Source: Phycisphaerae bacterium (GTDB lineage: Bacteria; Planctomycetota; Phycisphaerae; UBA1845; Fen-1342). Taken from it: a stretch of 64,000 bases of DNA. Under the pieces are notes generated by a model that saw only the letters and a program-made list of their open reading frames with translations, was not told the DNA's origin and searched no databases. Location of the stretch: positions 1 to 64,000 of the forward strand of contig JANQNU010000076.1 of assembly GCA_028279405.1 (NCBI GenBank), in the 5' to 3' direction. Below are positions 35,877 through 40,087 of the stretch, in pieces. The translations under genes and the position numbers were made by a program. The stretch's first letter is position 1. Each line of letters opens with the position of its first letter.

Positions 35877-36329
35877 CTACCCCGAGCAATGCGTGCGTTC
35901 GAAGGCAATGATCTTGTCGATCCGACGCGCGTGGCGCCCACCTTCGAACTCCGTTTCGAGAAACAGCCGCACGAGCTCGTCGACGTCGCCTTCGCCGATA
36001 CGGTCCGCGGCCAGACACAACACATTCCCGTCATTGTGTCGACGGCACATCTCGGCCGCATACTCGTCGTAACATAGCGCTGCGCGAACGCCGGCCACCT
36101 TGTTGGCTGCGATCGTCATCCCTACGCCGCTGCCGCAAACGAGGATACCGCGCTCTGCCCGCCCTTCCGAAACGTCACGCGCAACGGCGAAAGCCAGGTC
36201 CGGGTAATCGCACGGCGCCTCGGTCGTCGGTCCGTGATCCACGACCTCATGCCCCCGCTGCTCGAGCGACGCGCGGAGTCGCCGGCGGACGTCGAATCCG
36301 CGATGATCGCTACCAATTGCGATCTTCAT
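35877..36329 (-). CDS. rpiB: Ribose-5-phosphate isomerase B
   Basis: A 150-residue RpiB/LacAB-family isomerase that interconverts ribose-5-phosphate and ribulose-5-phosphate. Residues are Cys65 (LVCGSGVGM) as the base, His98 (CRRHNDGNV) in ring opening, and the N-terminal SDHRGF (7-12) phosphate-binding segment. All are intact. Its start lies within the last 20 bases of the Sua5-phosphatase gene, so translation is coupled. In Bacillus subtilis the same order, ywlC (Sua5), ywlE (arginine phosphatase), ywlF (RpiB), is found with separate genes. Confidence 0.94.
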   Translation of the reverse strand: MKIAIGSDHRGFDVRRRLRASLEQRGHEVVDHGPTTEAPCDYPDLAFAVARDVSEGRAERGILVCGSGVGMTIAANKVAGVRAALCYDEYAAEMCRRHNDGNVLCLAADRIGEGDVDELVRLFLETEFEGGRHARRIDKIIAFERTHCSG

Positions 36330-37446
36330 CGAGAAACTCCTTTACCCGCCGCGCAACGGCGCGCTCAATCTGGTCGGCACAAGCAGCATATTGTTCGGGG
36401 CCACCGCCGATCGGGTCGGCGATCGGACGGTCATCCAGCAACGTCACGCGCCCCGCCGCCGACGGCAGTCGCATCAGGATCGCTTCGCGATGATCGGCGG
36501 TCATCGCAAAGATACGCTCAGCCTGCTGCAGCAACTCCGGCGTCGTTGGCTGCGCCTGATGCGCCCGCGCGTCGATGCCGCGCTTGGCCAGCTCGTTCAC
36601 CGTTCCATCCGATGCCGCGGCCCCGGGAAACGCAGCCACGCCGGCCGATTCAACCAGATAACCGGCCTCGGCCGCTTCCGCCTCGGAAACCCCCAAGGCC
36701 TCCGCAAGCTGCTTGCGAAAGAGATACTCCGCGAGCGGCGAACGACACGAATTCCCCGTGCACACGAACAGCGTCAGGCTCTGCGACAGCCGACGAATCG
36801 TCCGCTCATCCACAGCACCCTCGCGAACAACGTTCCAATGATGACCGCGGATCTCAATGATCGTCGACGACCGGGAGAGCTGCGTGCGACCGGCATCGAT
36901 GGCATAGGTCGCTGCATCGCCCAGTTCGAGTAGCGCCTCCTCGACCGTTCCCGGCGCAGGACGGCCCGCCCGATTAGCACTGCTGGCAACCACCGGCACC
37001 GCCGACTCCAGCAGCAGCCGCGTCGCGACCGGATGATCCGGACAGCGCAAGCCGACCGTCTGCTCGTGGAACACCGCCGAACGCGCCTCCGCCGACACCG
37101 CGCGACCGAAGCTCGTCTCTTCCGGCGAGCGCTCCTCACAAATCAACGTGACCGGTCCCGGCCAAAGCTTCCGCACCAGCCGACGAACTAACGGCGTCGG
37201 CTTCGACAAGAAGTTCGCGGCCTCGCGCTTCGCACCCAGATGAACCGAGAACGGCTGCGTGCCAAGACGCCCTTTGGCCGCGCGCAAGCGCTGAACCGCC
37301 GCGGGATCCGCCGCGTTTGCACCGACCCCGTAAACGGTTTCGGTCGGGAAAATCACGAGGCTGCCTTCCCTCAAGCTGGTGGCGGCCTCACCCAACGAAG
37401 ACGCGTAAGCGTTTGTGTCTGCTGAACTTATCGTTATTGCTGCCAT
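36310..37446 (-). CDS. Sua5/YrdC-low-molecular-weight phosphatase fusion
   Basis: A 378-residue two-domain protein. Residues 1-210 are a Sua5/YrdC/TsaC domain, which makes threonylcarbamoyl-AMP for the t6A modification of tRNA (FPTETVYGVGANA, KGRLGTQPFSVHL, LWPGPVTLI, SSANRAG). Residues about 225-378 form a low-molecular-weight protein phosphatase: the loop is CTGNSCRS (Cys229 to Arg235, Ser236) and a C-terminal DDRPIADPIGGG carries the general acid. Bacillus YwlE, an arginine phosphatase, has Thr where this loop has Ser233, so tyrosine or arginine preference is open. ATG 37446 starts the Sua5 domain; the open frame reaches 37710 without a sensible N-terminus. It overlaps rpiB by 20 bases. 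Confidence 0.88.
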   Translation of the reverse strand: MAAITISSADTNAYASSLGEAATSLREGSLVIFPTETVYGVGANAADPAAVQRLRAAKGRLGTQPFSVHLGAKREAANFLSKPTPLVRRLVRKLWPGPVTLICEERSPEETSFGRAVSAEARSAVFHEQTVGLRCPDHPVATRLLLESAVPVVASSANRAGRPAPGTVEEALLELGDAATYAIDAGRTQLSRSSTIIEIRGHHWNVVREGAVDERTIRRLSQSLTLFVCTGNSCRSPLAEYLFRKQLAEALGVSEAEAAEAGYLVESAGVAAFPGAAASDGTVNELAKRGIDARAHQAQPTTPELLQQAERIFAMTADHREAILMRLPSAAGRVTLLDDRPIADPIGGGPEQYAACADQIERAVARRVKEFLDEDRNW

Positions 37447-37708
37447 ATCACCCGTAGCGCAGATTGTGGGCACGGAGCATCGCTCTGTCAAGACAACGTC
37501 CCGCGCTTCGTGCTCGATTGTAGGCACGCGACGTCGATTCCGGACGGTCCTGCAAGCTGCGCCTCCGACAATCGACGCGAACCCGTGACGGACGCAGTCG
37601 TACAGCGACGCGGGCGTCCGATCCCCGCCCGTGTGTCCGTGGCGGACTGACACCGGGCAGGATACCCTGCGGGTGAGCCGATCCTGAATCCGTAACACGC
37701 GAGCCCAC

Positions 37709-40087
37709 ATGATCTCTTCGATTCGTCGTTATACCCGCTGGCTGCATACGCGCTGGCCGGCGGGCACCGTCGAGAAGCTGCCGCGCGTCAACGAAGACGG
37801 CTCGACCAACGTTGCCGGCGTGTACATCGTCGGCGACCTGACCGGTATCCCGCTACTCAAGTTCTCGGTCGACAGCGGGGCACGCGCTGTCAGCGCGATC
37901 CTCGCGGACTCCACCTTTGAAAGAGCGCGTGGACAGAAGAGTCCCGACACGCGCGACCTCGTGATCATTGGTGCCGGCGTCTCCGGATTCGCGGCTGCGA
38001 AGGAAGCCCAGGCTCACGGTCTGGACTACACGCTGCTCGAAGCGAGCGAACCGTTCTCGACAATCGTCAACTTTCCCCGCCAGAAGCCAATCTATACCTA
38101 CCCCACGGAGATGGACCCGGCCGGCGATCTCGAGGTTTCAGCCGAGGTCAAGGAGGCGCTCCTGGAGGAACTGGAGGGGCAAACACTCGACGTCGGAATC
38201 TCGCCACAAGTCGCACGAGCGACGCGCATCCGACGGGTCGGCGGCAATCTGGAGGTCGAACTGGCCGAAGGCGGCCCGTTGCGCGCCCTGCGTGTCATCG
38301 TCGCGATCGGCCGATCCGGCAACTTCCGCAAGCTCAACGTACCCGGGGAAGAGCGCGACAAAGTCTACAACCGGCTGCACGATCCACAGGACTTCTGCGG
38401 GCAACGAGTCCTGGTCGTTGGCGGCGGCGACAGCGCGCTGGAGACCGCGATCGCCCTGACCCAGTGCGGCGCGCACGTGACACTCTCCTATCGCAAGCCT
38501 GAATTCTCACGCCCCAAGCCCGAGAATGCCGAGACCATCCGCACGCTGAGCCACGATCCCTCGGCCCAGGTCGCGGTGGAGTCGCCGAGCTCGGAACGCG
38601 TCACCACCTCGACCGGAGACTTCATTCGTCACGACAAGGCGCCCGGCAGCCTGACCCTCATGATGTCCAGCCAGGTGCTCGAAATCGCCGATGAGACGGT
38701 CCGCGTCCGTGACGCCGACGGCAACCCGGTCGAACTCAAGAACCAAGCTGTGTTTCGCATGATCGGCCGCGAAGCGCCACTGGACTTCTTTCGACGCAGC
38801 GGTATCGAAATCGCCGGCGAGATGACCGGCCGGAACTGGTTGGCGTTCGGCGTCTTCTTCGCGTTCTGCGTTTTTGTCTATCACTGGAAGAGCGACACGT
38901 ATGTGCTGCCGATCAAGCACTGGTTTCAGGAGCGAGGGTGGTTCCCTTTCAACATCCCCGCCGTACTCGCAGGCTTCGGTTCCGCTGCCGAGACCCGCGG
39001 GCATCTGCTGCACGTCCTGAGCAAGGCCAGTGCCGACCCGGGCACCTACTATACGCTCGCGTATTGCGTACTGGTCGTTGTCTTCGGTATCAAACGGATG
39101 CGCCGTCGAAAGACGCCGTACGTTCGCGCGCAGACACTAGCCTTGATGGCGTTTCAGTGTATTCCGTTGTTCCTGCTGCCCGTGATCGTGCTGCCGTGGA
39201 TGGGCGAGAACGGCTGGTTCGCGAACGGAACGCTGGGCGGTAGGATCGCCGACCAGTTTTTCGAGCCATACGATGAGGGCGGTCTCGACCGCGCGTACTG
39301 GCGCGCGTACGGGTTCGTGCTGGCCTGGCCGCTATTCGTGTGGAACTGGTTTACCGAGCAACCACTCTGGGGCTGGCTGATCGTCGGACTGCTTCAGACG
39401 GCAGTGTTGATCCCGTTGTTGATTTACTACTTCGGCAAGGGTGCTTACTGCGGCTGGATCTGTTCGTGCGGCGCCTTGGCGGAGACGCTCGGCGATGCGC
39501 ATCGGCACAAGATGCCGCACGGCCCGCTCTGGAATCGTTTGAACATGACGGGCCAGGTCGTGCTGTGGGTCGCGGTGCTGCTGATGATCGTGCGAATCCT
39601 CGGATGGATCTGGCCCGACTCGGGATTCGGATGGTTCTTCGAGGCGGCTCTCAGTGGCAAGAATGGGCTGCGCGCCCTGAACTATAAATGGACGGTGGAC
39701 GTGTTCCTGGCAGGCGTGTTGGGTGTCGCGTGCTACTTCTGGTTCAGCGGGAGGGTCTGGTGCCGCTTTGCGTGTCCGCTCGCCGCGTTGATGCACATTT
39801 ACGCGCGGTTCAGTCGCTTTCGAATCCTCGCCGACAAGAAGAAGTGCATTTCGTGCAACGTCTGCACCAGCGTCTGCCACCAGGGAATCGACGTCATGAA
39901 TTTCGCCAACAAGGGTCTGCCGATGGAGGACCCCGAGTGCGTCCGCTGCAGCGCGTGCGTGCAAAGCTGCCCGACCGGGGTGCTCAGTTTCGGGCAGGTT
40001 GATCCGCGCACGGGTACCGTGCTGCGCAAGGACCGGCTGGCGGCGTCGCTCGTTCAGTTGACGGAACAGGGTCGCGCCCGCGAATGA
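37709..40087 (+). CDS. Flavin oxidoreductase fused to a membrane polyferredoxin
   Basis: A 792-residue protein. Residues 38-58 (VYIVGDLTGIPLLKF) look like the closing segment of a thioredoxin-reductase-type fold, yet stand before the first FAD motif, VIIGAGVSGFAAAKEA (86-101), so the domain appears permuted. A second Rossmann motif VLVVGGGDSALETA follows near 235. There is no CxxC redox pair, as in YpdA-type reductases. After about residue 370 come several membrane helices, then NosR/NapH/CcoG-like cysteines (YCGWICSCG, WCRFACP) and two 4Fe-4S clusters: C713, C716, C719, C723 and C744, C747, C750, C754. It could pass electrons from NAD(P)H to a membrane acceptor; partner and direction are unknown. 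Confidence 0.8.
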   Translation: MISSIRRYTRWLHTRWPAGTVEKLPRVNEDGSTNVAGVYIVGDLTGIPLLKFSVDSGARAVSAILADSTFERARGQKSPDTRDLVIIGAGVSGFAAAKEAQAHGLDYTLLEASEPFSTIVNFPRQKPIYTYPTEMDPAGDLEVSAEVKEALLEELEGQTLDVGISPQVARATRIRRVGGNLEVELAEGGPLRALRVIVAIGRSGNFRKLNVPGEERDKVYNRLHDPQDFCGQRVLVVGGGDSALETAIALTQCGAHVTLSYRKPEFSRPKPENAETIRTLSHDPSAQVAVESPSSERVTTSTGDFIRHDKAPGSLTLMMSSQVLEIADETVRVRDADGNPVELKNQAVFRMIGREAPLDFFRRSGIEIAGEMTGRNWLAFGVFFAFCVFVYHWKSDTYVLPIKHWFQERGWFPFNIPAVLAGFGSAAETRGHLLHVLSKASADPGTYYTLAYCVLVVVFGIKRMRRRKTPYVRAQTLALMAFQCIPLFLLPVIVLPWMGENGWFANGTLGGRIADQFFEPYDEGGLDRAYWRAYGFVLAWPLFVWNWFTEQPLWGWLIVGLLQTAVLIPLLIYYFGKGAYCGWICSCGALAETLGDAHRHKMPHGPLWNRLNMTGQVVLWVAVLLMIVRILGWIWPDSGFGWFFEAALSGKNGLRALNYKWTVDVFLAGVLGVACYFWFSGRVWCRFACPLAALMHIYARFSRFRILADKKKCISCNVCTSVCHQGIDVMNFANKGLPMEDPECVRCSACVQSCPTGVLSFGQVDPRTGTVLRKDRLAASLVQLTEQGRARE

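Follow-up and report, generated by a model that had tools for sequence, protein, structure and literature searches.

The locus and its domain organization

The gene described here occupies positions 37709-40087 on the forward strand of the window, by which we mean the whole 64,000-nucleotide stretch of Phycisphaerae DNA that was analysed. It encodes a protein of 792 amino acids in which, as judged from the reading frame, Pfam matches, an alignment of 69 sequences and AlphaFold models, an apparently permuted FAD/NAD(P) domain is followed by a six-helix NapH/NosR-like module and a 2[4Fe-4S] ferredoxin. The open frame comprises 799 codons and has an in-frame stop seven codons 5′ of the start, so no front half-domain has been lost in frame, and a truncated upstream gene was ruled out by this stop. 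Pfam matches were obtained for Pyr_redox_3 (residues 85-368), Fer4_5 (565-602) and Fer4_10 (706-755), while two NCBIfam models, YpdA at 83-267 and NapH at 561-761, scored far under their cut-offs. By eye, the divergent upstream gene (36310-37710, reverse strand) resembles a fusion of a Sua5-type threonylcarbamoyl-AMP synthase with a low-molecular-weight phosphatase; it adjoins a gene that looks RpiB-like (35877-36329, reverse strand).

All features of the protein are given in forward-strand coordinates. An N-terminal extension (residues 1-20; 37709-37768), marked out by the alignment, the distant loci and pLDDT, carries a near-invariant YxxWLHxxWP and is missing from distant relatives. Behind it, starting at the 37769 boundary, lies what we read as the displaced segment that closes the FAD domain (residues 21-72; 37769-37924; GVYIVGDLTGIP, with an invariant G42-D43), delimited by the alignment, profile matches and a model of the domain alone. 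Pfam and the alignment then place the first half of the FAD domain (residues 80-200; 37946-38308), with GxGxxG at 88-93 and an invariant E111, and the NAD(P) domain together with the return strand of the FAD domain (residues 225-366; 38381-38806), with GGGDSALE at 238-245, invariant R262 and R268, and IGR at 352-354. The missing CxxC of the NAD(P) domain, remarked on in the first-pass annotation, was confirmed: its only cysteines are C230 and C253, and neither is conserved (13/69 and 35/69). A loop within this part (residues 283-312; 38555-38644) varies in length, is modelled by AlphaFold with low confidence and is missing or expanded in homologues. At one homologous locus (L031:3017-5485) the loop contains a zinc-ribbon-like insertion with a pair of CxxC motifs (CEGCGG...CPGCGK), and the protein of locus L032 is equal in length.

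The C-terminal half had been described in the first-pass annotation as a NosR/NapH-like membrane module with two 4Fe-4S clusters, and the Fer4_5 and Fer4_10 matches, the conserved cysteines and the modelled helices agree with this in part, the first of the two membrane-side cysteine motifs departing from CX3CP; the helices are seen likewise in the AlphaFold model, at residues 374-394, 444-467, 470-500, 554-575, 613-634 and 659-679 (module, 38828-39745). Lysine and arginine are dense in the loops 461-472 (4.4 per 10 residues) and 576-612 and in the C-terminal part, and sparse in the loops 395-443, 501-553 and 635-658, a pattern that fits six helices and from which we infer that the two termini lie in the cytoplasm. 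Two motifs are invariant in 69/69 sequences: C581-GWI-C585-S-C587-G (39449-39469), a CX3C motif with serine where proline is usual, and C685-RFA-C689 followed by P690, a CX3CP motif (39761-39775). Pfam and the alignment place a ferredoxin-type 2[4Fe-4S] domain at residues 706-761 (39824-39991), with C713, C716, C719 and C723 and C744, C747, C750 and C754. These eight, together with C581, C585, C587, C685 and C689, make up the 13 conserved cysteines of the C-terminal module, twelve of them invariant and C750 present in 68/69. NapH, NosR and RdhC have in common a membrane module in which a CX3CP motif of unknown function occurs twice; NapH and NosR also have two C-terminal 4Fe-4S motifs, and NapH has been proposed to act at quinol (PMC5928378). 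NapH-like modules are paired with many partners (PMC8238504).

The closing segment of the FAD domain precedes its core

Flavoproteins of the thioredoxin reductase (TrxR) type are among the best-studied enzyme folds, and to our knowledge their FAD domain is always drawn as closed by a C-terminal segment. The first-pass annotation had noticed that a segment of this tail type precedes the first FAD motif, and it does: GVYIVGDLTGIPLLKF occupies residues 37-52, N-terminal to the GAGVSG motif at 88-93. When residues 15-80 were moved behind residues 81-374, the Pyr_redox_3 match was extended from profile positions 1-281 to 1-305 of 305 (101.6 to 107.0 bits) and the Pyr_redox_2 match from 2-187 to 2-282 of 291 (74.2 to 87.3 bits), a core-only construct serving as the control. 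A distant ferredoxin-fused relative reordered in the same manner covered 2-305 of 305 in Pyr_redox_3 and 4-291 of 291 in Pyr_redox_2, with a rise from 97.0 to 108.5 bits.

The position of the segment in canonical enzymes points the same way. A profile of residues 1-72 matched best at a position C-terminal to that of the core in 27/27 canonical TrxRs; each score is weak (7.6 bits or less), so that the evidence lies in the position and not in the score. Of the 329 TrxR columns, hhalign paired 10-258 with the core (P 1e-40, probability 100%) and 241-313 with the segment (P 2e-4, probability 20%, a low probability being expected for 72 columns). The YpdA model is covered over about 1-265 of its 316 positions by the permuted proteins and over 1-314 by true YpdA. 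A second closing segment behind the NAD(P) domain was not found in any homologue examined, and a duplication of the tail was rejected on this ground. Cases flagged as having both tails by a loose G-D regular expression were judged false, though not every case was inspected, because a conserved SGVxIxGE just after the core fits the G-D pattern by chance. The preference of the first-pass annotation for permutation over duplication is thus upheld by the reordered profiles, the position of the segment in TrxRs, the YpdA coverage and the single tail.

The predicted structure has a mean pLDDT of 86.6 for the whole protein and of 87.2 for residues 1-372 modelled alone. The domain-only model forms a strand at 38-42 and a helix at 50-66, in blocks with mean pLDDT of 75-97; residues 1-80 hold almost no other strand, so the strand at 38-42 would have to pair elsewhere. 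The best PDB matches are YpdA structures (Z about 20). All the sequential structural alignments listed run from about residue 77-82 of the model to residue 370-372, and they end near residue 253-278 in ordinary TrxR, FNR and YpdA chains of about 300-346 residues (AhpF and NTRC have extra N-terminal domains), which leaves the canonical C-terminal part with no sequential partner. Aligners of this kind keep sequence order, and can neither reveal a permutation nor place the N-terminal segment on TrxR. The membrane module has no match among those listed by the structure searches, which is not evidence of absence since one domain dominates the matches. Residues 1-20 have pLDDT values of 80/65 in the full-length model and of 55/48 in the domain alone, and because of this drop they probably pack on the membrane/ferredoxin module.

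Conservation of the order and the wider clade

A genome scan recovered 80 loci, a few of them contig-edge fragments, with 49-65% identity in the best segment and most aligned to about residues 1-786 of the query. Their record titles, which are MAG labels taken as given, name Planctomycetota, Verrucomicrobiota, Latescibacterota, Gemmatimonadota, Acidobacteriota, Myxococcales, Gammaproteobacteria and others, so that the order of segment, core and membrane module, for which the first-pass annotation had suggested a search in other genomes, is found in many phyla. The N-terminal segment is kept in 69/69 aligned homologues, with Y8, W11, L12, H13, P17, G37, G42, D43, G46, P48, L49 and L50 invariant. 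In a sample of the window's own phylum, Planctomycetota, 42/294 genomes had a family match, and among 26 loci of this phylum taken in detail the order was segment, core, membrane in all 24 that have the front of the gene, distant members included; the remaining two are a fragment without the front (L101) and a contig-edge fragment that keeps just the segment and the core (L102). An origin of the segment from a fused partial gene, named by the first-pass annotation as an outcome that would count against permutation, was not borne out, no recent fusion being seen in the homologues examined. One contig (L017) has two tandem family members, in ORFs at 1006 and 4065, one of them of a distant type. 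At five Latescibacterota loci (L040, L042, L045, L047 and L050) two sulfatase-like genes lie upstream together with a conserved gene of about 340 residues, in the same order.

A search of 149 genomes with the permuted domain alone brought out other architectures with the same order. One type, of about 420-470 residues, has an N-terminal hydrophobic stretch and a ferredoxin before the segment; the other, of about 730-820 residues, has a C-terminal membrane part added. In the latter the segment was recognised by eye (e.g. GLFLAGEVTAHALIKTAI) together with a flanking core match, its profile score being below the threshold used. Permuted domains with an N-terminal ferredoxin, some with the extra C-terminal membrane part, occur at loci L132-L151, and most of those read have histidine at one of the usual cysteine positions of the second cluster motif (CxGHxxCxxxCP). 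In a FastTree analysis of 86 core domains the permuted proteins fell into a single branch (support 0.968); YpdA was its sister and TrxR lay outside it, and the ferredoxin-first group (0.96) was nested among distant NapH-fused members. The simplest reading is a single origin of the permutation. The family with this domain is real, conserved and uncharacterised, and, as its sequences show, the segment that closes the FAD part of a TrxR/YpdA-type domain sits before the rest of the domain (about 80-366) in an order that is old and conserved.

Relation to known flavoproteins and membrane modules

YpdA/Bdr, the bacillithiol disulfide reductase (TIGR04018; PDB 7a76, 7a7b, 7apr), is the closest curated model as well as the best structural match and the sister in the tree. 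In contrast to the permuted family, which has the end of the domain in front, YpdA has the canonical order, is soluble and has neither an Fe-S nor a membrane module. Our protein scores 114.8 bits against TIGR04018, and 123.8 after reordering, where the cut-off is 339.9, and the permuted proteins do not match the C-terminal end of that model. The thioredoxin reductase model TIGR01292 gives 59.2 bits against a cut-off of 343.45, with the CxxC absent, and the NapH/MauN model TIGR02163 gives 65 bits, over residues 561-761, against 213.05. What the family shares with the superfamily of FAD/NAD(P) two-dinucleotide-binding flavoproteins is the GxGxxG for FAD, the acidic residue, the second GxGxxG-type motif for NAD(P) and the closing G-D, all of them invariant, with the G-D at the front. 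Ferredoxin:NADP+ oxidoreductases of the TrxR type (e.g. PDB 3ab1, 6gar) have the same fold, also lack a CxxC and pass electrons from NADPH through FAD to an iron-sulfur partner, but unlike the permuted family they have the canonical order and are soluble, with the ferredoxin separate. NapH, NosR and RdhC (PceC) resemble our protein in having a transmembrane module with two CX3C(P)-type motifs, although the first motif is CX3CSC here and CX3CP there. Where those systems carry flavin it is covalent FMN outside the cell, whereas our protein has an NAD(P)H-FAD domain fused on the cytoplasmic side.

Proposed electron path and alternatives

Our reading is that the protein is a membrane-bound flavo-iron-sulfur oxidoreductase with a permuted YpdA/TrxR/FNR-type domain, in which electrons would pass from NADPH to FAD, to Fe-S centres and to the membrane, and we give it a probability of roughly 0.6. 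The relocated segment would fold back and complete the FAD site, NADPH would reduce FAD, and the electrons would move on to the pair of [4Fe-4S] clusters in the cytoplasm and to the invariant cysteine motifs on the membrane side; the NapH/NosR-like helices would be their way out, with quinone as the simplest acceptor. The parts of this reading differ in strength. That the FAD/NAD(P) domain is circularly permuted we regard as nearly certain, and transfer between NAD(P)H, flavin and Fe-S is likely. In TrxR, HRRxxxR binds the 2′-phosphate; the invariant R262 and R268 fall near these positions in the hhalign alignment, with R268 offset by one, which suggests NADPH as the donor. A putative role of quinone as the main acceptor is plausible but somewhat doubtful: NapH/NosR systems are thought to carry electrons outward from quinol, and against a reading as quinone reduction, our protein has no exported cofactor of the kind found in those systems.

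Three other explanations were weighed. The N-terminal segment could be a remnant from a gene that was fused or truncated, or a small domain of its own outside the FAD domain, as might be supposed from the failure of a sequential aligner to place it on TrxR and from the poor definition of residues 1-20 without the membrane module. We consider this very improbable: the segment persists in every aligned homologue with an invariant FAD-binding G-D motif, precedes the core in clear distant members too and makes the profile match full-length once the order is restored, and the core has no other closing segment. The closeness of YpdA in both model and structure might equally suggest that the enzyme acts as a thiol-disulfide reductase, as YpdA and TrxR do, and uses its membrane part as an anchor; since the flavin/NAD(P) domain has neither a CxxC nor any conserved cysteine, this too is very unlikely. 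By analogy with NapH/NosR-like modules elsewhere, thought to take electrons from quinol, the path may instead run in reverse or bifurcate, with NADP+ or a low-potential iron-sulfur acceptor being reduced at the expense of quinol or a membrane gradient. A flavin flanked by Fe-S clusters would suit such a scheme, but no ion-pump subunit was recognised near the gene, and we judge it unlikely, if less so than the other two.

Association with arsenosugar genes

Around 97 family loci the recurrent neighbours were DUF547 (15), GT87-type (10), ArsS (10, the one at L055 weak), GT2 (7), DUF2064 (7) and ArsM-like (6) genes; neighbour cluster c3, mostly reverse-strand shadow ORFs, was left out. NCBIfam identified the ArsS of L061 as TIGR04167 (434.8 bits, cut-off 300) and confirmed TIGR04282 in L074. 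At L103 an apparent operon runs from DUF547 through the family member, an ArsM-like gene and ArsS to a GT87/GT2/DUF2064 fusion of 908 residues. The arsenosugar gene set (ArsS TIGR04167, TIGR04282, TIGR04283, ArsM-like), although a frequent neighbour of the permuted family, includes no member of it in NCBIfam or the literature searched, and in open-access titles and abstracts on arsenosugar genes no paper ties them to the family. In Colwellia mytili KCTC 52417 (L080) ArsM-like, DUF2064, GT2, GT87 and DUF547 genes form a cluster, and the genome has no ArsS match.

In the Planctomycetota sample, ArsS is present in 31/42 genomes with the family and in 61/252 others (odds ratio 8.8, P 9e-10, with kinship not fully controlled); by taxonomic family the figures are 14/18 and 18/72, about 90 families being assumed. 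In Verrucomicrobiota they are 6/9 and 8/185 (P 3e-6), or 5/8 without the chosen centre genome, with odds ratios of 37-44. ArsS lies within about 6 kb of the family gene in 10 of the 31 Planctomycetota genomes that have both, from seven genera, and within about 2 kb in three Verrucomicrobiota genomes; the probabilities computed for such closeness take gene placement to be random. In the genome from which the window comes, ArsS lies on contig C89 and DUF547 on contig C13, neither of them beside the gene at 37709-40087. This co-occurrence with ArsS, often as a neighbour, in two phyla is new in this analysis, and the genomic link suggests that the permuted family serves the arsenosugar pathway in at least some bacteria.

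A stronger proposal is that the protein is dedicated to supplying electrons for the synthesis of arsenosugars or arsenolipids, and would feed the radical-SAM ArsS or reduce pentavalent methylated arsenic at the membrane, beside ArsM-like methyltransferases and membrane glycosyltransferases. The close ArsS genes in 10 Planctomycetota and three Verrucomicrobiota genomes, the L103 arrangement with the recurrent neighbours, and the co-occurrence in both samples speak for it. However, most loci, that of the window among them, are found outside such clusters; in the Planctomycetota sample the family is missing from 61 of the 92 genomes with ArsS, and ArsS from 11 of the 42 with the family. The clustered Colwellia mytili genome has no ArsS match either, and the co-occurrence counts are inflated by shared ancestry. 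We treat the proposal as tentative and less likely than not.

Implications

In the open-access titles and abstracts searched, no natural circular permutation of the TrxR/flavoprotein fold was described. A conserved natural permutation would mean that the FAD domain can receive its closing segment from the front, and the new ends that it makes are attachment points for ferredoxin or membrane modules. Profile libraries give partial, below-cut-off matches of such proteins to YpdA and TrxR, and they are easily misread as thiol reductases. It is conceivable, if speculative, that a whole superfamily of permuted FAD/NAD(P) oxidoreductases is built on ferredoxin and membrane modules in varied orders, with the NapH-fused branch powering arsenosugar or arsenolipid biosynthesis. 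The association with ArsS is a concrete and testable clue to an electron-transfer step of arsenic metabolism.
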